Of a stretch of DNA of 64,000 nucleotides, positions 34,672-54,737 are shown one piece after another; position 1 is the stretch's first letter, and the number at the start of each line of letters is the position of its first letter. Position numbers and translations under genes: made by a program. This DNA comes from Akkermansia sp. Its GTDB lineage: Bacteria > Verrucomicrobiota > Verrucomicrobiia > Verrucomicrobiales > Akkermansiaceae. The notes under the pieces are model-generated. The model did not search any database. It was not told the DNA's origin and saw only the letters and a list, made by a program, of their open reading frames with translations. The stretch lies in assembly GCF_020860705.1 (NCBI RefSeq), contig NZ_JAJBTT010000024.1:1-64000 (forward strand). The letters run 5' to 3'.

Positions 34672-37600
34672 TCAGCTTCCGGGCGCGTCATTCTTGTGCG
34701 CGGCCAGGTATTCCCGGGCTCCCGCTTCATCCGGGTCCTCCTTGAGTTCATTCAGGGAGAATCTGATGCGGAACAGTTTCATGATAAACACATAGGAACA
34801 TGGGATCAGAAAGACGCCCACCAGCGTAGCCACCCCCATGCCGATGACTACCACCGTACCGATGGCGTTGCGCGCCAGCGCGCCGGACCCGGAGGAAAGC
34901 ATCAACGGAATGCAGCCCAGGATGAAGGCCAGGGAGGTCATCAGGATGGGCCGCAGACGCAGCCGGGCGGCGGCCAGGGTGGCCTCCATCAGCCCCCTGC
35001 CGCGCTGCATTTCCAGATTGGCGAATTCCACAATCAGGATGGCGTTCTTGGCCGCCAGCCCCACCAGCATCACCAGACCGATCTGCGCGTAAAGCGTCAG
35101 CTCCATGCCCTGCCAGTACAGCCCTGCGTAAGCCCCCAGCACGGCAATGGGCACCGTGAGGAAGACCGCCAGGGGCAAGGACCATTTTTCATAGAGAGCC
35201 ACCAGAATGAGGAAGGCGAAGATGGCGGACATGGTGAAGATGGCCCCCAGGCCGATGCTGTTGCGCACCTTGTTTTCCTGGAAGCTCATGTCCTGGTAGT
35301 CAAAGCCCACCTTCGTGGGGTCCATCGTCTGCCGGAACACTTCCTCCAGGGCGTCCATCACCTGCTGGGTGGAATAGCCGGGCCTGGGCATCACGTTCAG
35401 CTTGGCAGCGTTATAGATGTTGTGGTGCATCACGAATTCCGTGTCCTCAATTTCCCTGATATCCACCAGGGCGGACAGGGGGACGCGGGCGCCGTCCGCG
35501 TTCGTGACGAAAAAGCCGTCCATCTTTTCCAAACTGGCGCGGTCTTCTCCCTGCGCCTGGATGTATACCTGCCACTGCTGGCCGAAGGCGTTGAAGTAGT
35601 TGATGAAGGAGGAACCGTTGTAGGCGGCCAGAATGCCGTTGGCTACGTCAATGTCCACCTTGTGGAATTTGCACTTTTCCTTGTCCAGGTTCACGTACTT
35701 CTGCGGCATGTCTGCCATCATCATGTCCATGCACAGGGCTATTTCCGGACGCCGGGAAGCCGCGGCCTGGAATTGCTGCACCTGTTCATGCAGGTAGGCC
35801 ACGCCCTGCCCTTCCAGGTCTTCCAGCACCATCGTCACGCCGTTGGCGGTGCCCACGCCGGGAATGGCCGGAGGTTCCAGCACCATCCCCATGCCGTCCA
35901 GCCCGGCCTGCGCCAGTTTGCCTTGAAGCTTCCGGGCCAGCTCCGCGGAGGTTTCCGGCCGTTCGCTCCAGTCCTTGAGTTCGATGAAGGCGATGCAGGC
36001 CCCGGGAGTCTGCACGCTGTTGAGGATATTGAGGCCCACAACGGTAGTCAGATTTTTCACGGCAGGATCCTGAAGGGCCGCTTCAAATTTCTTGTCCTGC
36101 TCATAGGCCACCTGCAGGGAGGTATTCGGCTTCAGGATCAGGCAGGCCAGCAGAAAGCCCTGGTCCTCGTCCGGAAGAAAGCCGCCGGGCACGCGTTCCG
36201 ACACGGGGACCACGGCCCCCCAGAATAAAAACAGGAGGGGGATGGAAATCACCAGCTTGCGAGCCAGGCTTCCGCACACGCGGGTGTAGCCGCTGGCGGC
36301 GCGGCCATAGCATCGGTTGAACAGGCGGTGGAACGGGGAGAAAATGCTCTTGCGTTCCGCACTCTTGGGTTTCAGCAGCAGGGCGCACAGCGCCGGGGAA
36401 AGCGTCAGCGCGTTAAAGGCGGAAATGAGCATGGAAATGGCGATGGTCACGGCGAACTGCTTGAACAGCGTGCCTGTAATTCCTTCCAGCAGCAGGGAAG
36501 GCAGGAACACCGCCGCCAGCACCAGCGCAATGGCGATGACGGGACCGGACACTTCCTGCATGGCTGCGAAGGAGGCCATGCGCGGATTCAGTCCCTTGTC
36601 AATGTGCTCCTGCACGGCCTCCACCACCACAATGGCGTCATCCACCACCAGGCCGATAGCCAGCACCATGCCCAGCAGGGAGATGGTGTTCAGCGAAAAC
36701 CCCAGCACGGGAAACAGGCAGAAGGTGGAGATCAGGGACACCGGCACGGCAATCAGCGGAATGAGGGTGGCGCGCCAGTTCTGCAGGAAGATGTACACGA
36801 CCAGGGCCACCAGGATGACGGCTTCAATGAAGGTGTGCTTGATTTCCTCAATGGAATAGCGCACCGCCGTGGTCGTATCCAGGGAAACGCGGCCGGCAAT
36901 GCCTTCCGGCATCAGCGGGGCCTTGGCGTTCAGCAGCTTTTCCACACGGTCAGCCGTGGCGATGGCGTTGGAGCCCGGAGACTGGAAGATGACGATGGCC
37001 GCGGAAACCTCCCCGTTCAGGCGTCCGGTGGCGGAATAATCCTCCGCCCCCAGCTCCACCTTGGCAATGTCTTTCAGGTACAGGATTTCATCCCCGTCCT
37101 GGCGGATGATGATGTCTTCAAATTCATGCGGTTCCGACAGCCGCCCCTGGGTACGTACGGTAATGGTCTGCTCCTGCCCGTCCGGCACGGGGTCCGCCCC
37201 GATCTTGCCGCCTGGGTTGGTGGTGTTCTGGGCGGAGATGGCGCCGCGCACTTCGTTGACGGAAACGCCGTAGTGGGTCATTTTGGACGTATCCAGCCAA
37301 ATGCGGATGGCGTAGCGCCCCGCGCCGTACACCTGCACTTCCCCCACGCCTTCCACGCGCTTGAGTTCGTCAATGAGCTTGACCTGGGCATAGTTCGCCA
37401 GGTCCACGGAATTGTAGCTGCCGTCCGGGGACGTCAGGGAATAAATCATGAGCGGGAGGCCCGGCTGCTGCTTGATGGTCACGCCCGTGCTCTGCACTTC
37501 CTGCGGAAGCTGGGAGGAGGCCTGCCCGTAGCGCATGTTGGTCAGCACCTGGTCAATATCCGTATCGGACCCCGGTTCAAAGATCACGGACAGGTTGTAC

Positions 37601-37860
37601 ACGCCGTTGTTGGAGGAAACGGACGTCATGTAGTCCATGCCCTGCACGCCGGAAATCTGGCGTTCCAGCGGCGTCCCCACGGAGTCCGCCACCGCCTGCG
37701 CGTTGGCCCCCGGGAACATGGCCTGCAACTGGATGGTGCGCGGCGTGATTTCCGGATACTGGGAGATGGGCAGGTTGAACATGCAGACCAGCCCCAGCAG
37801 CGTAGTCACGATGGCGATCACGGCCGCGATCGCGGGATGCTTGATGAAAAAGGCGCTCAT
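34672..37860 (-). CDS. RND multidrug efflux transporter (AcrB/MexB, HAE1 family)
   Basis: A 1062-residue inner-membrane pump of normal length. It starts MSAFFIKHPAIAAVIAIVTT, has the porter-domain QLPQEVQSTGV, the TM4 proton-relay Asp pair in LAIGLVVDDAIVVVEAV, a second set of helices with GLAAKNAILIVEFA, and GGFLPDEDQGFLLA at the start of the second half. The expected twelve helices fall in two blocks at about 340-540 and 870-1040. Driven by protons, it expels lipophilic compounds from periplasm and membrane with the adaptor encoded 3 bases upstream. No outer-membrane channel gene is linked. Confidence 0.95.
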   Translation of the reverse strand: MSAFFIKHPAIAAVIAIVTTLLGLVCMFNLPISQYPEITPRTIQLQAMFPGANAQAVADSVGTPLERQISGVQGMDYMTSVSSNNGVYNLSVIFEPGSDTDIDQVLTNMRYGQASSQLPQEVQSTGVTIKQQPGLPLMIYSLTSPDGSYNSVDLANYAQVKLIDELKRVEGVGEVQVYGAGRYAIRIWLDTSKMTHYGVSVNEVRGAISAQNTTNPGGKIGADPVPDGQEQTITVRTQGRLSEPHEFEDIIIRQDGDEILYLKDIAKVELGAEDYSATGRLNGEVSAAIVIFQSPGSNAIATADRVEKLLNAKAPLMPEGIAGRVSLDTTTAVRYSIEEIKHTFIEAVILVALVVYIFLQNWRATLIPLIAVPVSLISTFCLFPVLGFSLNTISLLGMVLAIGLVVDDAIVVVEAVQEHIDKGLNPRMASFAAMQEVSGPVIAIALVLAAVFLPSLLLEGITGTLFKQFAVTIAISMLISAFNALTLSPALCALLLKPKSAERKSIFSPFHRLFNRCYGRAASGYTRVCGSLARKLVISIPLLFLFWGAVVPVSERVPGGFLPDEDQGFLLACLILKPNTSLQVAYEQDKKFEAALQDPAVKNLTTVVGLNILNSVQTPGACIAFIELKDWSERPETSAELARKLQGKLAQAGLDGMGMVLEPPAIPGVGTANGVTMVLEDLEGQGVAYLHEQVQQFQAAASRRPEIALCMDMMMADMPQKYVNLDKEKCKFHKVDIDVANGILAAYNGSSFINYFNAFGQQWQVYIQAQGEDRASLEKMDGFFVTNADGARVPLSALVDIREIEDTEFVMHHNIYNAAKLNVMPRPGYSTQQVMDALEEVFRQTMDPTKVGFDYQDMSFQENKVRNSIGLGAIFTMSAIFAFLILVALYEKWSLPLAVFLTVPIAVLGAYAGLYWQGMELTLYAQIGLVMLVGLAAKNAILIVEFANLEMQRGRGLMEATLAAARLRLRPILMTSLAFILGCIPLMLSSGSGALARNAIGTVVVIGMGVATLVGVFLIPCSYVFIMKLFRIRFSLNELKEDPDEAGAREYLAAHKNDAPGS

Positions 37861-37863
37861 GGC

Positions 37864-39204
37864 TTACTTGGCGGTTACGGAAGGAGTGGTGGAAACGGGC
37901 GCGGTATAAACAAAGGGGGCGGGAACGACCGTTCCGAATCCTTCCGCAAGCCCGTGTTCCCGCATCAGGCTGTTCGCCTTGGAATACTGGGCGGCCATCA
38001 TGCCGCCTTCCACGATGACCGGAGCGTCCGCCGGCCTGTCATAGCCCATTTCCTTCAGGGATTCCGCAAGGGGCTTGACCGTCCCCGTCACGATCTGCAT
38101 CAGCATGGGGGCCGTGCCCCCGGCGCCGTCCGGCATGTCAAGCACCACGGTTTCTCCCGGCTGCACGTCAATGCGGCGCGGCGTGTTGTCCGGCGCCACC
38201 ACCATGATGTTGCGGTGGTTCATGGAGGAGAGGAGAGCCCGGGCAGGCACCAGCAGGGCGTCCTTTTCCGTTCCCGTCACGGCGCGCACACGCACCGCCA
38301 TGCCGGAACGCAGCTTCAGGTCCGGGTTGGGAACGTGGCCGATGAAATTCACGGTGCCTGTCGCGCGGCTCACTTCACTGTCCACGGAAACCACTTTTCC
38401 CTTTTTCTCAAAGACGGAGCCGTCTTCCAGAATCAGTTCAAAATCCGGCATGTCTCCCATGCGTCCGGTTTTCACGTTCACGGTGCCGTCCATCAAGCGG
38501 CTGAGCACCTGCTTGCCCGTCACGGAAAAATCCACCCGGATGGGGTCGATGGAAGACATGGTGGTGAGCGGGGAACCGCTGGCGGAAATCAGGTCCCCCA
38601 CGCTGGCCGTCGCCTTGGAAGCCAGCCCCCGGAACGGCGCGCGTACCTTCGTGCGGTCCAGGTTGATCCGGGCATTCTCCAGGGAAGCCTCCGCTTGCTT
38701 GATGCCCGCTTCCGCCTGTTCCAGGGAAGCCTGCATCTCCTTCAGGTTCTGCTGCGCATCCGTCAGGTTTTTCACGGAGATGGCTCCCGTCTTAATCAGC
38801 TTGTCATAACGGTCCAGGTCCTTCCGGACCCTGTCCATGGAGGCTTCCGCCTGGAGCTTGACGGCGCGCGCCGTAGCCAGATTGGCCTCTTCCCGGTCCA
38901 CCGCAGCCTGGTAGGAGGCCGGATCAATTTCAAAAAGCAGTTCCCCCTTGTCGCAAATGGAGCCGTCCCAGTATACCTGCCGGACCAGCGTGCCGGAGAC
39001 CTGGGGCCTGATGTCCGCCTGCTCCACCCCCCGCAGATGCCCGAACCATGAGGATTTCAGTTCCACCGTCCTCTGTTCCATGTTCATAACGGAAACCTTG
39101 AGCGGGGGCATTTCCCTCCGGTTCACGGCATCCGCCGTTTTGCCTCCGTCCCGGCATCCCGCCAGCCCGCACAGGGCCGCTATCATTATATGGTGTACTT
39201 TCAT
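37864..39204 (-). CDS. RND efflux adaptor lipoprotein (AcrA/MexA family)
   Basis: A 446-residue adaptor with a lipoprotein signal (IAALCGLAGC, Cys at about residue 17). Order of domains: lipoyl half GHLRGVEQADIRPQVSGTL, helical hairpin (about 105-180), second lipoyl half RTKVRAPFRGLASKATASVG, and beta-barrel with SIDPIRVDFSV. The C terminus is somewhat extended beyond the usual end. It bridges the RND pump and an outer-membrane channel. It starts 75 bases after marR with a MarR-type palindrome in the gap, so it can be repressed both from the marR promoter and locally. Confidence 0.93.
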   Translation of the reverse strand: MKVHHIMIAALCGLAGCRDGGKTADAVNRREMPPLKVSVMNMEQRTVELKSSWFGHLRGVEQADIRPQVSGTLVRQVYWDGSICDKGELLFEIDPASYQAAVDREEANLATARAVKLQAEASMDRVRKDLDRYDKLIKTGAISVKNLTDAQQNLKEMQASLEQAEAGIKQAEASLENARINLDRTKVRAPFRGLASKATASVGDLISASGSPLTTMSSIDPIRVDFSVTGKQVLSRLMDGTVNVKTGRMGDMPDFELILEDGSVFEKKGKVVSVDSEVSRATGTVNFIGHVPNPDLKLRSGMAVRVRAVTGTEKDALLVPARALLSSMNHRNIMVVAPDNTPRRIDVQPGETVVLDMPDGAGGTAPMLMQIVTGTVKPLAESLKEMGYDRPADAPVIVEGGMMAAQYSKANSLMREHGLAEGFGTVVPAPFVYTAPVSTTPSVTAK

Positions 39205-43478: not shown

Positions 43479-43889
43479 TTACAGGCCCGCCAGTTTCAGA
43501 ATGCGGTGGGCGGCCATGGCGGCGTTAACGGGGGTCTTCTTGTGCAGGCCCACCGTGGTGCAGGGCACGCCGCCCGGGCACTGGGCGATGGCCAGCAGGG
43601 CGTCAATGCCGTTCAGGGGGCCGCCGGGAACGGGCACGCCGATGACGGGAAGGGAGCAGCTCATGACCACCACTCCGGGAAGGGCCGCGGACAGGCCGGC
43701 CACAGCCAGAATAACGGCCTTTTCCCCGCTGGCTTCCAGGTCGCCCAGGAACTTGACCAGTTCCGGAAGGTCGCGGTGGGCGGACAGGACGGTTTCTTCA
43801 TACGGAACATTCTCCTGCGCAAAATACTCGCGGGCCGGTTCCATAAAGGGCTTATCATTCGGGCTTCCGTAGATGACGATGACTTTCAT
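43479..43889 (-). CDS. purE: PurE-like N5-CAIR mutase / AIR carboxylase
   Basis: A 136-residue protein, somewhat shorter than usual PurE (about 160). It has YGSPNDKPFM in place of the usual GSxSD, the conserved LSAHRDLPELVKF, AGLSAALPGVVVMSCSLPVI and GVPVPGGPLNGIDALLAIAQ. Family function: interconversion of N5-CAIR and CAIR (class I) or carboxylation of AIR (class II) in purine synthesis. Ser to Asn in the first motif is unusual and class assignment is unsure. It begins the minus-strand nucleotide cluster; pyrR follows after 26 bases. Confidence 0.85.
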   Translation of the reverse strand: MKVIVIYGSPNDKPFMEPAREYFAQENVPYEETVLSAHRDLPELVKFLGDLEASGEKAVILAVAGLSAALPGVVVMSCSLPVIGVPVPGGPLNGIDALLAIAQCPGGVPCTTVGLHKKTPVNAAMAAHRILKLAGL

Positions 43890-44016: not shown

Positions 44017-44787
44017 TCAGAAGAAGGAGTCGTCATCCTTATCCTTTTCCCCACTCATGCCGAAGACGTACCAGAGCATCACATTGGCGTCATCATCTGT
44101 CACCGTTTCGTAATCCCTGTCGTTCACGCCTTCATCCTCCGGCCTTCCCATCCTCCTGTTCAAATCCCGGACCATCTCCTTTTCAACCTCCACCGTCCAG
44201 GCCAGCATCTCCTCTACGGAAGGCAGCGGAGGCGTTCCTGTCTCAAGCCGGGAGCGGAAATCAGCAGCCCGCCTGCGCCACTCCTTTTCGTCCGGATGGG
44301 CCACATTTTCCGGATTCAGCACATTCATTACAAAAAACAGCGGGGCCGAAGAAGCTACAAACCGCTGTAGATCATACCTGACCAGCTGCTCCCTGATACG
44401 AATCTCCACCTTTTCCAGCTCTTCCGGAGACAGCTTCCTCATGGGAATTTTTCTCCCGGCGCACCAAGACAGCACATCCTTCCAGATTATCCGGAACTCC
44501 TCCGGACACTTTTTTAAAGCCTCCGCCGGGAAAGATTCCTGCTCACGCTTCATGGCAGCCGCATCACCGATGGAAAAGCCCCCGGTCCATTTGATAATCA
44601 TTTGCTCCATCATAATCCACAAGATGAAACTGCGAATCGCTTCGCGCTCCTTCATCTGCCGCCCATCCAAACGCACTGGAACGGATCCGCCCGGTCTGTC
44701 CGTATTCTTCCCATCCCGGCCCCAGGCAGGTCCCAGGGAACACCAAACGACCAGAACCGTCAAAGGAATCCAACTCAACGTCTTCAT
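44017..44787 (-). CDS. Secreted paralogue A of the 44-50 kb array (most diverged)
   Basis: A protein of 256 residues from the ATG at 44787, with a signal peptide (MKTLSWIPLTVLVVWCSLG). It shares the family core: a charged start leading to KEREAIRSFILWIMMEQMI and then FPAEALKKCPEEFRIIW, the CPxxFR signature. It lacks the SGK..P C-terminal motif of the others and instead carries about 70 extra residues ending in an acidic tail (GEKDKDDDSFF). It is the last gene of the array in the direction of transcription. Function unknown; predicted helical, exported to periplasm or surface. Confidence 0.68.
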   Translation of the reverse strand: MKTLSWIPLTVLVVWCSLGPAWGRDGKNTDRPGGSVPVRLDGRQMKEREAIRSFILWIMMEQMIIKWTGGFSIGDAAAMKREQESFPAEALKKCPEEFRIIWKDVLSWCAGRKIPMRKLSPEELEKVEIRIREQLVRYDLQRFVASSAPLFFVMNVLNPENVAHPDEKEWRRRAADFRSRLETGTPPLPSVEEMLAWTVEVEKEMVRDLNRRMGRPEDEGVNDRDYETVTDDDANVMLWYVFGMSGEKDKDDDSFF

Positions 44788-44951
44788 TCTTCCCGCCATT
44801 CTAACATTTCCAGACGAGCAGTCCATCTTTCACTGCTGCGCATTTTCCATCAAAAAACTACTTCCCTGTTTTTCATGAGCCCACCTTTTTAACAGGGACC
44901 GGGATTCCTTCTCCCTGAATTCCTTCCCTGCCCCATAGTGCATCGACCTCT

Positions 44952-45572
44952 TTAATGATACGCCACTCGAAAAGCATCTTCCCTATTCTGCTGTTCAATA
45001 TCCCCCCCCTCCGGAGGCTTCCCGGCATCATCCGGAATGACCGCCCTGCCTGACTCAAGCTCTTTTTTCCACTGTTCAAGACGCTTCAGGAGTTCCTCGT
45101 TGCTTTCATTCTGCCTCTTCATGGTCTGCCGGTCCAGCCACTCAATCAAACCCAGCATGGAGCGATCCAAATCATACTGATGGTGAAACCGTTTCCTGGC
45201 ATCGTCCAGCCTGGACTGCATTTCCGGCCCTTCCGGCTTACCGCTTCTCAGGCATTCATCCATCATGTTCAGCACATCAATGTACGAGTGCCGGAAATCG
45301 GGCGGACATTCCTTCTCAAATCTTTCAGGCATCAGGCCAGTCCCTATCCCATTATTCTTCCTCCCATGCACCTGCCCTTCCAGAGAAACAATTTCACAAC
45401 ACAATTCAAGCAGAACGCAATACCTGAGAATGGCCGCACGGTCTTTCCTGAACTGCTGCATCTCCAAATCCACGTTCACCATGGACGATTCCGCAACGTC
45501 CTGCCCCCGGGACGAGCCAAGGCAGCACCCCCATGCCAGGCACGCTATGGAAAACCAGTTGGACAGTTTCAT
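44952..45572 (-). CDS. Secreted paralogue B of the array
   Basis: A protein of 206 residues from the ATG at 45572. The signal peptide (MKLSNWFSIACLAWGCCLG, then SSRGQDVA) is followed by SMVNVDLE, DRAAILRYCVLLELCCEI, the ECPPDFRHSYIDVL signature and LEQWKKELESGRAVIP near the end. These are the four landmarks of the array: QDVxxPxMPNVDLET, ExxAxxRY, CPxxFR and LKxxLxSGK..P. Its signal peptide and about 50 bases upstream are nearly the same as those of copy C, although the mature parts differ strongly. Function unknown. Confidence 0.68.
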   Translation of the reverse strand: MKLSNWFSIACLAWGCCLGSSRGQDVAESSMVNVDLEMQQFRKDRAAILRYCVLLELCCEIVSLEGQVHGRKNNGIGTGLMPERFEKECPPDFRHSYIDVLNMMDECLRSGKPEGPEMQSRLDDARKRFHHQYDLDRSMLGLIEWLDRQTMKRQNESNEELLKRLEQWKKELESGRAVIPDDAGKPPEGGDIEQQNREDAFRVAYH

Positions 45573-45620
45573 GGTCTTTTCATTGGTTAAGAGAAAGGAT
45601 TCCCGCTTTTTTCCTTTTCC
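45573..45620 (-). repeat. Upstream segment duplicated between copies B and C
   Basis: The 48 bases before the start of copy B align with 46263-46310 before copy C with only a few differences (shared CTTTTCATTGG, GGATTCCCGCTTTTTT). The match extends into both signal-peptide regions. It probably carries the leader and ribosome-binding region. Confidence 0.7.
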
Positions 45621-45644
45621 CGTACCGAACATACGGAGGGATCT

Positions 45645-46262
45645 TCAGTCTACAGCCTCTTCACCAGCTCCTGCGCAAAGACATTCTACAGGAACAGTCC
45701 TTTTTCCGGACTCAAGATCATTCTTCAACCGGAACAGTTTCTCCAGTACCATCTCCGGCGGAGCTTGCCCGTGATCCTCCACCTCCTCATCAAGCCACTT
45801 AGTTGACACGCTTATCATCTTTTTCAACCCATATGGCTCCGCCAGATGTTTCATCGCTTTCTTCACCGCTTCCATCTGCTTCTTTCCTTCAGGAGTCTTC
45901 ACCCAATCCGGATTTTCATTCAAGGCGGTTTTTATTTTCTCGAAAGGGGCTATATGTAGTTTCCGGAATTCTTCCGGGCACCCGGCTGAAACATTTTCCG
46001 GCATCAGGTCCAGTATCCGTTTAAGAGTCAGGCTCCCTTTGATATTCCCCTGTATATCCGATTCCAGAAAAGCAATCGAGCAGCATAAAGTCCAGAAAAA
46101 CATGTACCTGGCTACCGCCTCCCGTTCCCCGGCCAATTCCGGCGTCTGCCGGTCATCAACCACGTTCGGCATAGGGGGTGCGGCCACATCCTGCCCCCTG
46201 GATGCGCCAAGGCAGCAGCTCCATGCCATGCATGCTATAGGAAACCATTGGCACAGTCTCAT
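45645..46262 (-). CDS. Secreted paralogue C of the array (mosaic of B and D)
   Basis: A protein of 205 residues with signal peptide MRLCQWFPIACMAWSCCLG. Its N terminus and leader match copy B, while the mature part from RQTPELAGEREAVARYMFFW onward matches copy D, including TPEGKKQMEA, LMPEN, GCPEEFRK and the end LESGKRTVPVE. This points to unequal exchange or gene conversion between neighbours. Two Cys lie in the central helix (LCCSI) and one in the CP motif, so disulfides are possible. Function unknown. Confidence 0.7.
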   Translation of the reverse strand: MRLCQWFPIACMAWSCCLGASRGQDVAAPPMPNVVDDRQTPELAGEREAVARYMFFWTLCCSIAFLESDIQGNIKGSLTLKRILDLMPENVSAGCPEEFRKLHIAPFEKIKTALNENPDWVKTPEGKKQMEAVKKAMKHLAEPYGLKKMISVSTKWLDEEVEDHGQAPPEMVLEKLFRLKNDLESGKRTVPVECLCAGAGEEAVD

Positions 46263-46310
46263 CGTCTTTTCATTGGCTAAGGGAAGGGATTCCCGCTTTT
46301 TTCCTTTCCC
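46263..46310 (-). repeat. Upstream segment duplicated between copies C and B
   Basis: Second copy of the 48-base leader segment at 45573-45620, in the same position relative to its gene, 690 bases away. Confidence 0.7.
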
Positions 46311-46333
46311 CTACAGGAAATGAGGAAAAACGT

Positions 46334-46942
46334 TCAATCCACAGTATTTCCATCAACTCCTGCACGCAAATATTCCACCGGAACAGCCACTTTCCCGGAC
46401 TCAACATCACTTTTCAACTGGAGCACATCCTTCAAGACTTTCTCCGGAGAATCTTCCTTTCTGAATCCCAGCCTGTTATTGAGCCACTCCCTTGACAAAC
46501 GCACCATCTGCGTCACCCCATAGGGCTCCTCCAAACATTTCATCGCTTTCTCCATCGCTTCCATCTGTTTCTTTCCTTCAGGAGTTTCCGCCCATTCCTC
46601 ATTTTTATTCAAGGCGGTTTTTATTTTTTCAGAAGGCTCCAGCCATACTTTCCGGAATACTTCCGGACACCCGGCCGCACTATTTTCAGGCATCAGGTTC
46701 AACAGGCGTTTGACGACCGCCCCCGGAGACTGGTCCGGCTGCCTATCCGATTCCAGAAGGACAATGCGTTCGCACAAGGTCCAGAAAAACATGTACCGTG
46801 CAACGGCCTCCCGTTCCCTGGCCAATTCCGGCGTCTGCCTGGAATGATCCATATCCGGCATGGATGACGGCGTCATCTCCTGCCCCTGGGCCATTCCCAG
46901 CCAGCAGCTCATTACCCCCAACATTAAAACCAATTTAATCAT
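46334..46942 (-). CDS. Secreted paralogue D of the array
   Basis: A protein of 202 residues from the ATG at 46942 (signal peptide MIKLVLMLGVMSCWLGMAQG). It is the closest relative of copy C: RQTPELAREREAVARYMFFW, SEKIKTALNKNEEW, TPEGKKQMEAMEKAMK, and the C-terminal LKSDVESGKVAVPVE. The CP signature is GCPEVFRK. The alternative ATG at 46966 would add eight non-hydrophobic residues before the signal peptide. About 190 bases separate it from copy E; a 39-codon frame there (46982-47101) is not supported. Confidence 0.7.
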   Translation of the reverse strand: MIKLVLMLGVMSCWLGMAQGQEMTPSSMPDMDHSRQTPELAREREAVARYMFFWTLCERIVLLESDRQPDQSPGAVVKRLLNLMPENSAAGCPEVFRKVWLEPSEKIKTALNKNEEWAETPEGKKQMEAMEKAMKCLEEPYGVTQMVRLSREWLNNRLGFRKEDSPEKVLKDVLQLKSDVESGKVAVPVEYLRAGVDGNTVD

Positions 46943-47134
46943 CAGCTCATGATAAGCCTCCGCCAAGGTGAAAGTCCATCCTTATCTCCACTTCTTCCCC
47001 TTCCGCCCGGATGATTTGTTCCTCCGGAACGGCTGCACCCTGGCTCCGTGCCATTCCGGCGCAACCCGTACGCGGCAGAGCCATTTGGAAATCAAATCCA
47101 TTAGTCCGTCACTCGAAATCAATCCAGGCTTTTC

Positions 47135-47734
47135 TTACAGCTTTTCACTTTCTTCAGGAATTTTCAGCTTTCCAGAGAGGATATCCTTCTTGATCCGATA
47201 AAGAACTTTCAGACTTCCCGCTTTGTCCAATCCTTTTGTTTCCCGCCTTAAAAAAGAAAAAAACTGCATGGCGCATGTTTCCAGCTGGTACTTCTTCATG
47301 ATCCCGGCTCCCATTTTCATGCATTCGGCCCCGTGTTTTTCATAGGCTTCCATGAACCGGTCATAATCCATCTTCTCTTTTTCCACCCGTTCCAGCAATT
47401 CCTTTGATCCCTTAATGATGTTCAGATGCATATCCCGGTAATCGGAAGGGCATTGATCCAGGGTTTTCAACCATTCGGGAGACTCAACATACTTGAGCAT
47501 CGCCATCAGCATCTCCCTCCGCCCCATTTCCCCCATTTCCCCCTCGATGATGTACGAACAGACGAAACCCAGCCACAGATGCCTCTCTACCGCCTCTTGA
47601 TACGCCGCCATTTTTTTCCCCTCCTCCGTCTCCAAATCCACATTAACCATAGAGGGTTCCACCACATCCTGGGCCATGGCGGGGAACATCATCAGAAGAA
47701 CGGGAAGCACCCATAGCCAGAACTGCCTTATCAT
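47135..47734 (-). CDS. Secreted paralogue E of the array
   Basis: A protein of 199 residues with signal peptide MIRQFWLWVLPVLLMMFPAM ending AQ. The mature part opens DVVEPSMVNVDLETEEGKK, then AVERHLWLGFVCSYII, the signature QCPSDYRDMHL (Tyr for Phe), and the C-terminal KKDILSGKLKIPEE. It keeps all four family landmarks but is otherwise divergent from its neighbours, with a Met/Glu-rich central part. Predicted helical and exported. Function unknown. Confidence 0.7.
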   Translation of the reverse strand: MIRQFWLWVLPVLLMMFPAMAQDVVEPSMVNVDLETEEGKKMAAYQEAVERHLWLGFVCSYIIEGEMGEMGRREMLMAMLKYVESPEWLKTLDQCPSDYRDMHLNIIKGSKELLERVEKEKMDYDRFMEAYEKHGAECMKMGAGIMKKYQLETCAMQFFSFLRRETKGLDKAGSLKVLYRIKKDILSGKLKIPEESEKL

Positions 47735-47876
47735 GAACCCACGTTACAGGGGCCTTTCATGCATGGTCAACATTATTCTCCCTTCCAGGCTGACGACGGA
47801 ACAGCCGCCATGCCCGCATCAGCAGACAGTCCATGCGGCACAGCCGTCCTTACCCCTGAATTCCATTGCCCTGAAT

Positions 47877-48486
47877 TTATTGATTCCCCTGCCGTATCAC
47901 CTCCTCAGGAAGAGCCACTTCTCCGGTAGCCAGCTTTTCCTTTAGCGCCTTAAGGCGGCCAATGGCTTTCCTTGCCTCTTTGAGCCCATCTCCCGCCAAC
48001 GGAGAGAATCCGGTTTCCTTCGCTACCCAAATCATCCATGGCGTAGAAGTTTTCCGGACCATGTATTTTTTCAACAACAATTTCATGTGCCTGTTCATGC
48101 TCCTCCGCGTTTCATCAGAAATCACCCCGGATTCCTGAATGTCTTTCCTGCACGTATCCATCCACCGCCGCACGGCCTGCCTGAAATCTTCCGGACAGAG
48201 GGAAAGAGCCTGCTCCGGAAAGAGCCTGCTCCGGAATGGAATCCAAGGCATGCTTCATCATCGCCTGTTCATCCATCCCATTTTCCTCTTCCGCCATCCA
48301 TATGATTTGTTCCAGAGATTCCAAGGCCAAAAACTTGCATATGGCGGCGCGGCCCTCCCCTATTTTTCCGCCGGCCTCCGTAGTTAAATCAACGTTCGGC
48401 CTTGCCGGAGATGCAGCATCATCCGCACGGGAAGAAAAAGGGCACGCCCCGCATAACAATAAACCAATCATTAAAAACCGACTCAT
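47877..48486 (-). pseudogene. Secreted paralogue F, broken by a 16-bp tandem duplication
   Basis: The N-terminal half reads from the ATG at 48486 (MSRFLMIGLLLCGACPFSSR, then PARPNVDLTTEAGGK, AAICKFLALESLEQII, DSIPEQALS) and then goes out of frame. The C-terminal half continues in another frame (PEQALSLCPEDFRQAVRRW, ending KEKLATGEVALPEE). The break is exactly a duplicated 16-base unit at 48203-48234. Removing one unit restores a single reading frame of about 197 codons with all four family landmarks. No other damage is seen, so the event is recent or reversible by slippage. Confidence 0.85.
48203..48234. repeat. 16-bp perfect tandem duplication inside paralogue F
   Basis: AAAGAGCCTGCTCCGG occurs twice head to tail (48203-48218 and 48219-48234). 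Sixteen is not a multiple of three, so it shifts the frame of the gene. Confidence 0.95.
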
Positions 48487-48715
48487 GCCAGCCATGCGCG
48501 CAATATACCACAAAACCGTTCTCAGGCAATGAGTTTTCACCATTTTCCATACATTTATCCCGCTTTCTTTCGTGTTCCCAGCTGCCCCTGTCTGGAAGCC
48601 GTTTCTTTCCCCAACTCCTGCCGGACGGCGGGAAATCACTTCTTCCCCGCCTCCCCTTGTCATCCGCCGGGTACCATCAGCGCCGGACAATGCCGGGGAC
48701 TCCTTGTTCCCGGAT

Positions 48716-49285
48716 TCACTCTTCCACCATCTCCGGCATCACCTGGCGGCCTGAACGGACGTTATCGCGGAACTGCCGGAATGCCTGGATAAAAGTTTCC
48801 TGATCCATGCCGCCGCGGGTGTTGATTTCCCGTTCCATCCAGTCCATGACCTGCGGACACAAGTCCTCCATCCCGTACTCCGCCAGAAAAGCCAGAATCT
48901 CAGGATCCTCAGGATCAAACGGGCCAGACTCCAATTTCTTCTTCCCCTCCGCAGCGTCCTTCAGTTCCTGCACCCTGGCATTCATCAGCTTCCGGAGCTT
49001 CTGCGGACACGCCTTCAGTTCCTTTCCGGGAAAAGCCGCCAGGATCCGGGGATAGAGGTCTTCCTCCCTGCACATGCCGTCACGGTTTTCCAGGGCAGGC
49101 AGAAGAACGGATAAATAAAGCAGCACGAAAAACTTGCGGATGGATGCCTTTTCCGCCGCCAGCTTTTGCCCGGAAGGCGTTTCCAAATCCACATTCGGCA
49201 TGCCGGGAGCCCCGATATCCTGCGCCGCGCCGGGCAGCACGAAAAGCGCGGGGCACAGCAATAACAACATCCGGGGCGTTCTCAT
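48716..49285 (-). CDS. Secreted paralogue G of the array
   Basis: A protein of 189 residues with signal peptide MRTPRMLLLLCPALFVLPGA, then AQDIGAPGMPNVDLETPSGQ, the best example of the shared post-signal motif. It continues KASIRKFFVLLYLSVLLPAL, the signature ACPQKLRKLM (Leu-Arg for Phe-Arg), a long charged middle, and FRQFRDNVRSGRQVMPEM near the end. Predicted helical and exported. Function unknown. Confidence 0.7.
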   Translation of the reverse strand: MRTPRMLLLLCPALFVLPGAAQDIGAPGMPNVDLETPSGQKLAAEKASIRKFFVLLYLSVLLPALENRDGMCREEDLYPRILAAFPGKELKACPQKLRKLMNARVQELKDAAEGKKKLESGPFDPEDPEILAFLAEYGMEDLCPQVMDWMEREINTRGGMDQETFIQAFRQFRDNVRSGRQVMPEMVEE

Positions 49286-49539
49286 GGTTCATTTTTGGAC
49301 AGCCGAACACCCCGATCGTTCGAAATCTGCGGGAATCCCCTCTTCCCCCATTATTTTTCTCTCTCCGGCTGTTTTTCACCTGGAAAATTTTAAAAACCTC
49401 CATTTTTCAGAATGAAAACGTCAGGGGAGAATATTTCCTTTCCCTTCTTCTTCATACAGCTCCCGGCGGAAGAAGGCCTTTTCCATCCCCCTACAGGGCT
49501 AAAACGGAGTCTCTCCGCTTCTTCCTCCCCCATGACTGC

Positions 49540-50121
49540 CTACATTTCTTCTTCAATCTCCTCAAAATCCATGGGAACCTTGATTTTTCCCGCCTCTATA
49601 TCCTCCTTCAATTCACGCATCCGCTGGGCTTTGAACGCAGGCGTGTCCTCATCCCCGAAGTTCAACGTTACCGCCGTCCATTGTGAAATCAGCATTTCCT
49701 CTCCCTTCAAGCCGTACTTGAACAACAGGGAGGAAACTTCCTCATCTTCCGCATAGGGCCAGACAATGTCCGTTTTAATGCCGTCAAGGTATGCCTGGAT
49801 TTCCCTCTTTTTTAAAGCGATCACTTCCTGGAAATCCGGAGGGCAGCGCTTCAGGGCGCTTTCAGGAAATTCCTCCAGCATCACCTGATAAAACTCCGTG
49901 ACCAGCCCCTTGGCGCCCCTGATGACCAATTCAGCGGACGGCAAGTTCCGGGCAACGCAGATCTGGGCAAGAAAGCTCCGGATATTCTCACGATCCTTCT
50001 CCTGCAACCTTCCTTCTTCCGTGCCCTCCTTCAAGTCCGGCACGGCGGGAGGCGCAACATCCTGGGCGCATGCCATGCCCCACAAGCATGCCAAGAGCGG
50101 AAAACGGGCCAGGTTTTTCAT
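49540..50121 (-). CDS. Secreted paralogue H of the array (first transcribed)
   Basis: A protein of 193 residues with signal peptide MKNLARFPLLACLWGMACA, then QDVAPPAVPDLKEG, ENIRSFLAQICVARNL, FPESALKRCPPDFQEV and LKEDIEAGKIKVPMD, so all four landmarks are present with some drift. The tail is acidic (FEEIEEEM). It is the first gene of the array in transcription order; the promoter should lie in the roughly 200 bases between it and the oxidoreductase gene end at 50325, where none was recognised. Confidence 0.68.
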   Translation of the reverse strand: MKNLARFPLLACLWGMACAQDVAPPAVPDLKEGTEEGRLQEKDRENIRSFLAQICVARNLPSAELVIRGAKGLVTEFYQVMLEEFPESALKRCPPDFQEVIALKKREIQAYLDGIKTDIVWPYAEDEEVSSLLFKYGLKGEEMLISQWTAVTLNFGDEDTPAFKAQRMRELKEDIEAGKIKVPMDFEEIEEEM

Positions 50122-50324: not shown

Positions 50325-51917
50325 TCAACGGGACACCTGCTGCGCCATGGCCTCCGCACAGCGGCGGCCATCCAGGGCTGCGGAAACAATGCCGCCGGCA
50401 TACCCGGCCCCTTCCCCGCAGGGATACAGCCCTTCCAGCCCGGGATGCTCCAGCGTGGCGGGATCCCGCGGAATGCGCACGGGCGAACTGGTGCGCGTCT
50501 CACAGCCGATGAGCTGGGCGGAAGCCCCGGCAAACCCGCGCCATTTGCGGTCAAACTGCCGCAATCCCTCCCGCATGCGCCAGACAACTTCCCCCGGAAG
50601 CAGTTCATGCAAGGGATGGGATACAATGCCGGGATGGTAGCTGGTGGGAAGCAGGGAGGTGGAAACGCGGCCTTTCAGGAAGTCCTCCACCTTCTGGGCA
50701 GGGGCTTTCTGCATCCCTCCTCCGGCGCGGCTGGAAGCCGTTTCCAGTGCCTTCTGGTAGGCCACGCCCGCCAGCACACCGTGTTCCCTGCGGAAAGATT
50801 CCGTATCTTCCGGATGCACGCTGACCACAAAGCCCGCGTTGGCAAAGGGGGAATCCCGGCGGGCCAGAGACATACCGTTGACCACCACCTCGTCATTCTC
50901 CGTGGCGGCGGGAACAATAAAGCCGCCGGGACACATGCAGAAGGAGTGGACGCCGCGGTCCTGGATGGTGGCCGTCACGGAATAGCGCGCCGCCGGCAGC
51001 TGTTCCGGGCGTTTCCGGCCCGGGCGCAGATGGTACTGCTGCGCATCCACGAACGCCTGGGGATGTTCAATGCGCACCCCCACGGCAAAAGGCTTCTGTT
51101 CCAGTTCCAGCCCCTCCGCCAGCATCATGCGGTACACGTCCCGCGCACTGTGCCCGGTAGCCAGCAGAACGGCATCCGCCGCAAATTCCCGGCCATCCGC
51201 ACAGGCCGCGCCGCGGATGCGCCGTCCGTCCGCAGAACGGAGCAGATGCTCCACACGGGCATTGAAATGGATTTCCCCGCCCGCGCGCAGGATGGATTCC
51301 CGGATGGCCTTGACCACGTTGGGCAGCAGGTTGGAGCCGATGTGGGGATGGGCGTCCGTCAGAATTTTCCCCGGTGCGCCGTGAGCCACGAATATCTCAT
51401 AAATCTCCCGTACCGGACCGCGCTTGGTAGCGCGCGTAAACAGCTTGCCGTCCGAGAACGTGCCCGCGCCGCCTTCTCCAAAGCAGTAATTGGAATCCTC
51501 CATCACGATGCCCTGCCGCAGGATGGGAGCCAGGTCAAACCGGCGGGAAGAGACATCCTTCCCCCGTTCCAGCACCACGGGTTTCATCCCCAGTTCCAGG
51601 CAACGGAGGGCGGCGAACATCCCCGCCGGACCAAATCCCACGATCAGCGCCACCGGCGCGCCCGGCCTGACGGGCGGATAGTCCCGGGAGGGAAGATGTT
51701 CCGGAGGCAGTGCTTCATCCACCCCGGCCAGAAAACGCAACTGGAACAGAATGTTCCTCTGCCGGGAATCAATGGACTCCTTCACCAGCCGCAATTCCCG
51801 GATGCGGGAGGGGGAAACGCCCAGCTTTTCCGCCACGGCGGCGCGGCGCGCGCGCTCGTCCCCGGCTTTCTCCATCGGCAGAATCACATCCACCGTCACG
51901 CCTTCCCCGCCGCTCAT
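50325..51917 (-). CDS. FAD-dependent oxidoreductase (NAD(P)/FAD-dependent, COG2509-type)
   Basis: A protein of 530 residues from the ATG at 51917, which overlaps the end of aguA as ATGA. The FAD-binding site is ALIVGFGPAGMFAALRCLEL with VVLERG at the end of the second strand. Further typical segments are NYCFGEGGAGTFSDGKL, AVLLATGHSARDVYRMM, FCMCPGGFIVPAATEND and the closing GLYPCGEGAGYAGGIVSAAL. The N-terminal part (ERARRAAVAEKLGVSPSRI) is a small extra domain found in this group. Substrate unknown. Cytoplasmic. Confidence 0.88.
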   Translation of the reverse strand: MSGGEGVTVDVILPMEKAGDERARRAAVAEKLGVSPSRIRELRLVKESIDSRQRNILFQLRFLAGVDEALPPEHLPSRDYPPVRPGAPVALIVGFGPAGMFAALRCLELGMKPVVLERGKDVSSRRFDLAPILRQGIVMEDSNYCFGEGGAGTFSDGKLFTRATKRGPVREIYEIFVAHGAPGKILTDAHPHIGSNLLPNVVKAIRESILRAGGEIHFNARVEHLLRSADGRRIRGAACADGREFAADAVLLATGHSARDVYRMMLAEGLELEQKPFAVGVRIEHPQAFVDAQQYHLRPGRKRPEQLPAARYSVTATIQDRGVHSFCMCPGGFIVPAATENDEVVVNGMSLARRDSPFANAGFVVSVHPEDTESFRREHGVLAGVAYQKALETASSRAGGGMQKAPAQKVEDFLKGRVSTSLLPTSYHPGIVSHPLHELLPGEVVWRMREGLRQFDRKWRGFAGASAQLIGCETRTSSPVRIPRDPATLEHPGLEGLYPCGEGAGYAGGIVSAALDGRRCAEAMAQQVSR

Positions 51918-52969
51918 GGGACCTCCTTCCGCGACTGGGGCTGCTGCTGGGTGATGCAGTGGATGGCACCGCCTTCCAGCACCAGCTTGCGGGCATCCAC
52001 ACCGACTACCTGCTTTCCGCTGAAGCATTCCCGCAGAATGCCCAGGGCGCGGTCGTCATTCCGGGGCTGGTTGAACACGGGAACGATCACGGCATCATTC
52101 ACGATCAGGAAATTGGCGTAACTGGCCGGCAGCTGGTCCAGCCGCCAGTCCTGCGCACGAAGGGGGTCCGGCATGGGCAGGGGAATGACTTCCACGCCGG
52201 AGCCGTCCACACATTTCAAATCCTGCAGGCGTTCATTATTCTCCGCCAGGGCGCGGTAATGGGGGGAGGAAGAATCCGGCTCCACGATGGAGACTATGGC
52301 ATCCCGGCATACAAAGCGCACCATGTCGTCAATATGGCCGTCCGTATCATCCCCCTCAATGCCGGAACCGAGCCAGAAAACGGACCTGACGCCCAGCATG
52401 CGCCGCAGTTCCTCCTCAATCATGGTCCGGCTCCATTCCGGATTCCGGTTGGGATTCAGCAGCACGGACTCCGTCGTCACCAGCAGGCCGTCTCCGTTGC
52501 CTTCAATGGCGCCCCCTTCCAGAATCATGGAGGAGCTGCGCACGGGAAGCCCGAGAGCGGAGCCGATCAGGGCAGGAATGCCGTTGTCCAGGTCCCACGG
52601 GGCAAACTTGCCGCCCCACGCGTTAAACTGCCAGTCCGCCAGTATCAGGGAGCCGTCCTCCACATCCTGCACGAAGACGGGGCCATGGTCCCGGCACCAG
52701 ACGTCGTTGGCCGGATGGTTGAACAGGCGGTACTGTTCCTCCCGCACCCCGGCATGCTGCATCGCCTGCCTGATGCCCGGGTGAAGAGCTTCCGCAGCAT
52801 TCACGCACACGAGGGCATGCGGTGCAATGGCGGCGGACACGCATCCGTAGGTCTGCTGCAGCTCATCCAGGCCGCCCTGCCACAAATCCCGGCGGTGAGG
52901 CCAGGAAAGCCACACGGCATCCTGCGGTTCCCATTCAGCGGGCCAGCGTACGTCAGGTTCCTTGCTCAT
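51914..52969 (-). CDS. aguA: Agmatine deiminase
   Basis: A 351-residue enzyme of the guanidino-group-modifying family that turns agmatine into N-carbamoylputrescine and ammonia, on the route from arginine to putrescine. Catalytic and binding motifs: NDVWCRDHGPVFV, NAWGGKFAPWDLDN, ILEGGAIEGNGDG, GDDTDGHIDDMVRFV (Asp and His) and the nucleophilic Cys in LEGGAIHCITQQQP. The N-carbamoylputrescine amidase gene usually found nearby is not in this window. It starts 15 bases after the Minf_1886-type gene. Confidence 0.95.
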   Translation of the reverse strand: MSKEPDVRWPAEWEPQDAVWLSWPHRRDLWQGGLDELQQTYGCVSAAIAPHALVCVNAAEALHPGIRQAMQHAGVREEQYRLFNHPANDVWCRDHGPVFVQDVEDGSLILADWQFNAWGGKFAPWDLDNGIPALIGSALGLPVRSSSMILEGGAIEGNGDGLLVTTESVLLNPNRNPEWSRTMIEEELRRMLGVRSVFWLGSGIEGDDTDGHIDDMVRFVCRDAIVSIVEPDSSSPHYRALAENNERLQDLKCVDGSGVEVIPLPMPDPLRAQDWRLDQLPASYANFLIVNDAVIVPVFNQPRNDDRALGILRECFSGKQVVGVDARKLVLEGGAIHCITQQQPQSRKEVP

Positions 52970-53444: not shown

Positions 53445-54737
53445 TCATGCACTTCCGGCTTTTTTCCCGCCCTCCGGCCCTGCATAAGTTCCCATGAACA
53501 GCACGGCACGGTCCTCCGGGCTGTAAATGAGCCACAGGAAAGGGCGGTTGAATTCTATCTCCGGCCCCTTTCCCAGAGGAAGAGGCCCCGCAAACGGATC
53601 CATATCTCCGGCGGAGGAGGCCGCGGCTTCCAAGCCATCCTCACACACCCTGATTGCGCATTTCTGGTACACGTCATGGATTTTCAAAGGTTCCGATGAA
53701 CAGCTTCCCATGCGTGAAAAATCAGCGCGGCCGGTAAAAGCGTCTTTCATTCCCAGCGTCTCCAGGGCTTCTTTCAGGGAGAGCGTGGGGGGAGAGATGG
53801 AAAAACGGGGAAGACGCAAATGGTATCTGGAATACTGCTCCAGAGGTTTTCTTCCGCGCTGCCCCTTCTCTTCCGCAGCAGCACGGACGGACAGGGAGGA
53901 CAGGAGGCCGTTCCATTCCTCCGCAGTCATGCCGGCAATAAATTGTTTAAGTTTCTTCCCCTCCGGGGGCAGCACGGCCATCAACACGGGAGCCCCCTTT
54001 CCACCCGCCAGGAACAGGCTGGCCCCGCGCACCCCATTCTTTTCACCATACATTCCTCCCTGCCTGGGCCAGGAGCTTCCCTCCATGAAAACCTGCTGCT
54101 TCATCATGGGAACCTTGCAGGAAGTGCCGTCCTCCCGGACAAACACCCTTCCCACCGTATCCTTCCCTTCAAATTTACTTTCCCAGAACGCCCTCATGTA
54201 CATGGCATTAACCAGTACAAGCACCGTCCGGTCACTCATCACCTGCGGATCCAGAAGCTGCCGTATCCTGTTTTTCGTATTCCTTGCCGCCCAGGAATTC
54301 ACCAGCCGCACGGCTTCCGGCATGTTCTCCCGGAAAGGCGCCGGGCTCACATACTCCGGACCCACGGTCCTTTGATAGGCTTCTTTCAGCTTCACGGACC
54401 GGTCCGCGAAAATGCGGTTGGCGGAATAACAGCGCAGCGACCGGGAAAAATCATCCGATAAAAAAATCCAGTCTTTTCTGATACCCCCGTCTCCGGGCAA
54501 TACAGCCCTCATCTGCCTCTCCGTTTCTCCCGCCGCCCCCGGAAGCATGTAACGGAGAACTTCATACAGGGAAAAAGGAGAAACCATTACACTGCCGGAG
54601 CTTTTCTCCACGCATGCCCGGAGAAGGCGCAGCTCCGGAGGGTCGGAAACACCGGGAACCGGCGGTGCAGGAACAGCAGCCCATGACAAGGATCCAAGAA
54701 AAACCGCACACGCCAATAATCTGAATATCATGCTCAT
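53445..54737 (-). CDS. Secreted serpin
   Basis: A 430-residue serpin with a signal peptide (MIFRLLACAVFLGSLSWA). Serpin landmarks include VMVSPFSLYEVLRYMLPGA, VNSWAARNTKNRIRQLL, LVLVNAMYMRAFWESKF and the closing FNRPFLWLIYS, VLFMGTYAGP. The reactive-loop hinge EDGLEAAASSAG (from residue 366) has the small residues needed for loop insertion, so an inhibitor of serine proteases is plausible. The loop is about 6 residues longer than in alpha-1-antitrypsin: counting from the hinge puts Phe at P1, counting back from FNRPF puts Leu there. Either suggests chymotrypsin- or elastase-like targets (inference). Confidence 0.92.
   Translation of the reverse strand: MSMIFRLLACAVFLGSLSWAAVPAPPVPGVSDPPELRLLRACVEKSSGSVMVSPFSLYEVLRYMLPGAAGETERQMRAVLPGDGGIRKDWIFLSDDFSRSLRCYSANRIFADRSVKLKEAYQRTVGPEYVSPAPFRENMPEAVRLVNSWAARNTKNRIRQLLDPQVMSDRTVLVLVNAMYMRAFWESKFEGKDTVGRVFVREDGTSCKVPMMKQQVFMEGSSWPRQGGMYGEKNGVRGASLFLAGGKGAPVLMAVLPPEGKKLKQFIAGMTAEEWNGLLSSLSVRAAAEEKGQRGRKPLEQYSRYHLRLPRFSISPPTLSLKEALETLGMKDAFTGRADFSRMGSCSSEPLKIHDVYQKCAIRVCEDGLEAAASSAGDMDPFAGPLPLGKGPEIEFNRPFLWLIYSPEDRAVLFMGTYAGPEGGKKAGSA

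Follow-up and report, generated by a model that had tools for sequence, protein, structure and literature searches.

A lineage-specific array of divergent exported paralogues with a constant tail and variable bodies in Akkermansia

The window analysed here, a stretch of 64,000 nucleotides from an Akkermansia contig, carries at positions 44017–50121 eight homologous genes, all on the minus strand, and raises the question of what kind of system such a run of divergent exported paralogues represents and what it might do. The A. muciniphila group attracts study as a candidate probiotic. Its strains differ in how they adhere, aggregate and stimulate the immune system, and these differences are, to our knowledge, incompletely explained. 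A sequence-only reading had described eight tandem paralogous genes; the number and orientation of the copies were borne out, but only seven are intact, one being broken. In a leave-one-out search of the 538 window ORFs, each intact copy was recovered by a profile of the other six with E values from 4e-11 to 8e-55, and the best and sole non-array match was an antisense ORF (E 6e-4), which ruled out chance similarity among the copies.

Copy 1 (p1; 49540–50121, minus strand, as are all the others; 193 aa), which encodes a signal peptide and a helical domain, occurs as two deeply diverged allelic types between species, and copy 2 (p2; 48716–49285; 189 aa) is the best-conserved orthologue, with 51–99% identity between species. 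Copy 3 (p3; 47877–48495) is a frameshifted pseudogene whose reading frame is split by an exact 16-bp tandem duplication at 48201–48232 (recorded without a strand; GGAGCAGGCTCTTTCC twice on the minus strand), lying between N- and C-terminal halves that both match the family. Copy 4 (p4; 47135–47734; 199 aa) represents the only lineage kept in two other genomes, G053 and G196. Copies 5 (p5; 46334–46942, likely start 46942) and 6 (p6; 45645–46262; 205 aa) share 74–78% DNA identity across blocks of 172–230 bp, which makes the evidence for tandem duplication direct, copy 5 being the recent duplicate. Copy 7 (p7; 44952–45572, likely start 45572) is intact, and copy 8 (p8; 44017–44787, likely start 44787) is the most divergent, recovered at E 4e-11, with a C-terminal extension and without the N-tail motif.

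Every intact copy begins with a typical signal peptide, and in most of them the cleavage context is [AGS]-x-[AG] before QD (both read by eye); no clear lipobox was recognized by eye in the intact copies, and no anchor was seen in the array proteins. The mature parts of the intact copies span 168–233 residues and are all acidic (pI 4.5–5.6). These lengths correct the earlier figure of about 180–230 residues for the helical domain. The window's RNA elements comprised two tRNAs only.

For copies 2 and 6, AlphaFold2 confidently predicted bodies made wholly of helices (pLDDT 82.1 and 82.7, respectively), with an identical main helix order rather than unrelated folds at about 21% sequence identity, in models that share one 17-sequence alignment and are not fully independent. 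Searches of Pfam, NCBIfam, PHROGs and PADLOC gave no match (best E 0.011) that reached a curated cut-off, for families that have one, a sequence search of solved structures in the PDB gave none, and Foldseek returned nothing at E≤0.001 with either model. The best VIA-align Z scores, 5.6 and 4.5 for the copy 2 and copy 6 models, were no higher than common helical arrangements give. Weak matches to the helical folds of CheA P1, FAT, Dps and PqqC/TenA, among PDB and viral models, were indistinguishable from such arrangements and were set aside; the absence of a fold match in the PDB and viral models is no proof of a new fold. No profile search placed the proteins in a known characterized family, and no published description of the cluster was found in the literature.

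Of 153 windows of 15 residues compared along the mature protein in 23 representative members, the best conserved was the very start, QDVxxPxMPNVDLET, with a column identity of 0.43, as compared with 0.25 for the mature protein in the same set. In copy 2 the tail, QDIGAPGMPNVDLET, is encoded at 49178–49222 (minus strand) and is predicted to be disordered at its start, the AlphaFold2 model placing putative disorder at residues 5–28, over much of the tail. The sequence-only reading had listed this motif as the first of a series of ordered landmarks; it is clear in most copies but weak in copy 5 and absent from copy 8, and the C-terminal motif, which it had placed in seven copies, occurs in a loose form in all eight. 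In the array members C-P and Y alone are invariant, G and P being nearly so, and all of these lie in the helical body and at the C-terminal end. A DNA pattern for the tail had no matches outside the array in its own genome (G000). Same-codon use in the tail was 0.625 against 0.526 expected, and since the adjacent signal peptide showed no same-codon excess, gene conversion probably explains just part of the conservation of the tail.

We compared the locus among 388 Verrucomicrobiota genomes, with one genome per species and a contig scan that used copy-2 orthologues as the profile. The family was present in 11 of them, all of one genus and belonging to the A. muciniphila group; related loci in other genomes came from A. 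muciniphila isolates and one Akkermansiaceae MAG. In all 11 genomes the array lay between its upstream border, the gene for an FAD-dependent dehydrogenase (50325–52028, minus strand; 88–95% identity with orthologues from other species), and purE-pyrR-pyrB-pyrC, of which purE (43479–43889, minus strand; 96–100% identical between species) forms the downstream border. The two border-gene searches covered one further closed genome of the genus, G015, in which about 1 megabase separates the border genes. Copy number ranged from one to eight between species, with loci counted, broken ones included, as follows: eight in G000, seven each in G004 and G017, six plus a remnant in G296, five in G037 (one truncated), four in G047, three each in G056 and G124, two in G049 and one each in G053 and G196. 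Larger arrays were found mostly in larger genomes. No family match was obtained in viral contigs, phages or plasmids, and a mobile-element origin was ruled out on this ground. The array is real, undescribed and lineage-specific, and its anatomy is that of a constant tail on a variable body.

Besides the array, the family loci in the searched genomes consisted of one singleton and one two-domain locus, both slow-evolving. The singleton (L047:4081-4710; also L049, L050, L120 and L121) matches the family profile at E 4e-14, carries a QDVA tail and was present in 8/8 clade genomes among the relatives; it evolves slowly, being 71–84% identical to that of G000 among the copies compared. Since such slow-evolving relatives exist outside the array, fast divergence is a property of the array and not of the family. 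The singleton sometimes adjoins a PA14-bearing sulfatase, and a functional link between the two was discarded, as the linkage was not seen in G053 and G004. The other relative, probably a two-domain protein (about 310 aa; loci L048, L051, L052, L053 and L122), is exported-looking, with two CPxDF-type halves, the first of which gave a weaker match to the family profile (94% probability). It occurs in 8 clade genomes and in G015, where no array was found, and is possibly an older form of the family.

Flanking genes were mostly 87–100% identical to those of the window, as compared with 24–88% for the array proteins, which are among its most divergent blocks; together with the database searches, this upheld the earlier proposal of an undescribed, clustered, exported and fast-diverging family. 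Between G000 and G017 the array proteins were 40–75% identical and the other window genes had a median of 92.6%, and between G000 and G004 the values were 27–54% and 87.6%, the medians being approximate, as the comparison genes were picked mechanically as ORFs, some of them wrong-frame. Global dN/dS was 0.3–0.4 against 0.1 in flanking genes, three to four times as high and spread evenly along the protein, indicating that the intact copies are still constrained. For copy 2, pairwise dS between well-separated species exceeded that of the flanks two- to threefold, which means that relaxed codon use or recombination accounts for part of the divergence. By our own grid method (kappa fixed, 5–9 sequences per gene), no site in p1, p2 or p4 had a posterior for dN>dS above 0.9, and no hypervariable patch was found along the protein. 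These results lend no specific support to the antigenic variation suggested by the sequence-only reading, with constraint relaxed evenly along the sequence. The array shares with variant surface-protein families its tandem, exported, divergent paralogues, its pseudogenes and signs of recombination, but it differs from them in that no expression site or cassette switching was seen, copy number goes down to one, and neither a hypervariable patch nor positive selection was detected.

In a tree of 48 members, some eight old lineages of paralogues were resolved; species differ in which of them they have kept, and gene order is largely conserved. Five genomes have broken copies, and the cause differs: G000 has the 16-bp duplication, G017 and G047 carry TAA stops, in G037 a copy is truncated and in G296 one was hit by an insertion. 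Phase variation through the 16-bp repeat, a possible slippage site, is disfavoured, other broken copies having ordinary nonsense stops. The G296 insertion (C1:2222900-2235500; L116 5900-12501 and L117 1-6500) lies inside the array, where it destroyed one array gene, and carries, besides a very large gene of Rhs type, glycosyltransferase-like genes and small ORFs that look secreted. The Rhs-type gene, recognized by its signature by eye, runs on the strand opposite to the array, and the part of it that was read encodes about 1,950 residues.

The copy-1 gene tree grouped G000 with G047, and G017 with G056 and G124, unlike eight flanking genes, which place G017 with G047. In an AU test on groups that were picked after viewing pairwise distances, the copy-1 and flanking trees rejected each other's arrangement (p of 3e-36 for the flanking arrangement on copy 1 and 2e-57 for the reverse). 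This conflict may reflect either allele exchange between species or the sorting of two old tandem copies, and the array as a whole has evolved by duplication, loss and decay, and apparently by allele exchange, among the approximately eight old lineages.

We propose that the locus is a paralogue reservoir, held at one fixed site, for lineage-specific, soluble, all-helical exported proteins. Each mature protein would consist of the shared flexible peptide followed by a six-helix body; export would take the Sec route, the tail would dock all paralogues to one common cell-envelope partner, and each body would bind a different and changing extracellular or periplasmic partner, with copies gained and lost as these partners come and go. 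Our leading guess for the partners would be incoming antibacterial proteins or enzymes, and such an immunity-like or inhibitor-like repertoire stands, as a guess, roughly level with host contact; inhibition of changing targets, put forward in the sequence-only reading, is a possible role. That the array is an exported binding-protein repertoire whose members have diversified bodies but a common docking tail, whatever the partner, is to us evenly poised between right and wrong, a judgement that covers the model as a whole, the rivals that name a partner being partly special cases of it. The fixed site, the one to eight copies, the flanks' higher identity, the old lineages differentially lost, the p1 conflict and the broken copies all fit this model, and further points for it are that the N-tail is the most conserved part although predicted to be disordered, with no DNA-pattern match outside the array in its own genome, that the intact copies remain constrained and that the relatives outside the array evolve slowly. 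Against it stand the lack of detected site-level positive selection, the tail-less copy 8, tail conservation that is partly at the DNA level and to which gene conversion may add, the elevated dS, and a p1 conflict that could come from sorting of old tandem copies. A more specific version, in which helical heads that vary in target specificity are presented on a constant, flexible docking peptide at the N-terminus, old alleles exchanged between Akkermansia species make up the repertoire, and the proteins protect against competitors or phages or mediate host contact, we regard as doubtful.

The repertoire model has to be weighed first against lineage-specific periplasmic accessory proteins, of the chaperone or assembly-factor type, that are under relaxed constraint with no arms race. 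The even relaxation along the sequence at an omega of 0.3–0.4, the frequent decay and the existence of conserved single-copy relatives argue for this explanation, but pure relaxation poorly accounts for eight retained lineages, for the conflict between the p1 allele and flank trees and for a tail more conserved than the fold, and we consider it somewhat unlikely.

Mobile immunity arrays are known from Bacteroidales, and the Akkermansia array could be an orphan-immunity array of exported proteins that neutralize competitors' toxins acting in the periplasm. Protection by orphan immunity genes has been documented (PMC10539506), and like the mobile arrays of Bacteroidales and the Rhs orphan immunity of Serratia (PMC10539506), the array is a strain-variable run of small, divergent genes without toxins; its products are helical and exported, copies are gained and lost, and a large Rhs-type gene, by eye, sits within the array of G296. 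However, it differs from those systems in its fixed chromosomal site, its single homologous family, its signal peptides throughout, and in that no recombinase was seen and no toxin pairs were found. In the neighbourhoods that were read, family members had no toxin gene next to them except in G296, where the only toxin-type gene, that of the disruptive Rhs insertion, is on the opposite strand and an array gene was destroyed. With one fixed site, and no array found outside the clade or on plasmids, phages or viral contigs, we judge this explanation unlikely.

An explanation of the same low probability is that the proteins are surface or secreted factors for host interaction, mediating mucin or epithelium adhesion or interacting with the immune system. 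They are exported and confined to gut bacteria of the A. muciniphila group, with larger arrays mostly in larger genomes, and the phylogroups differ in adhesion and TLR stimulation, AmIV strains adhering and aggregating more than the others (PMC8262928). Host contact merits testing on the strength of these differences, but capsule and many other genes confound the phylogroup link, the genomes compared here carry no phylogroup labels, and the array proteins showed no hypervariable patch, detectable positive selection or anchor.

Highly improbable is a role as secreted inhibitors of host enzymes in functional partnership with the nearby secreted serpin gene (53448–54737; PF00079, E 3.6e-62; 76–79% identical between species), which also diverges fast. 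In G000 this gene sits about 3.3 kb upstream, with a similar placement in G017, G056, G124 and G296; however, frame breaks interrupt it in G047 and G049, and the flank searched in G004, G037, G053 and G196 yielded no serpin, independently of array size. No inhibitor fold was matched in the array. Serpins share with the array proteins being exported, fast-evolving, loss-prone and close by; the array proteins are all-helical and of about 180 residues, differing in size and fold, with no Pfam match and no PF00079 domain.

The locus thus represents an undescribed exported family in one to eight copies, divergent though flanked by conserved housekeeping genes, and as a compact, deletable target it allows one to ask if exported repertoires have a part in how Verrucomicrobiota compete or make contact with their hosts. 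Elsewhere in the window, two genes at 34675–39204 resemble, by eye, an RND-type efflux pump and its adaptor; close counterparts are missing from the matching regions of G017 and G004, and the pair may be an accessory insertion.
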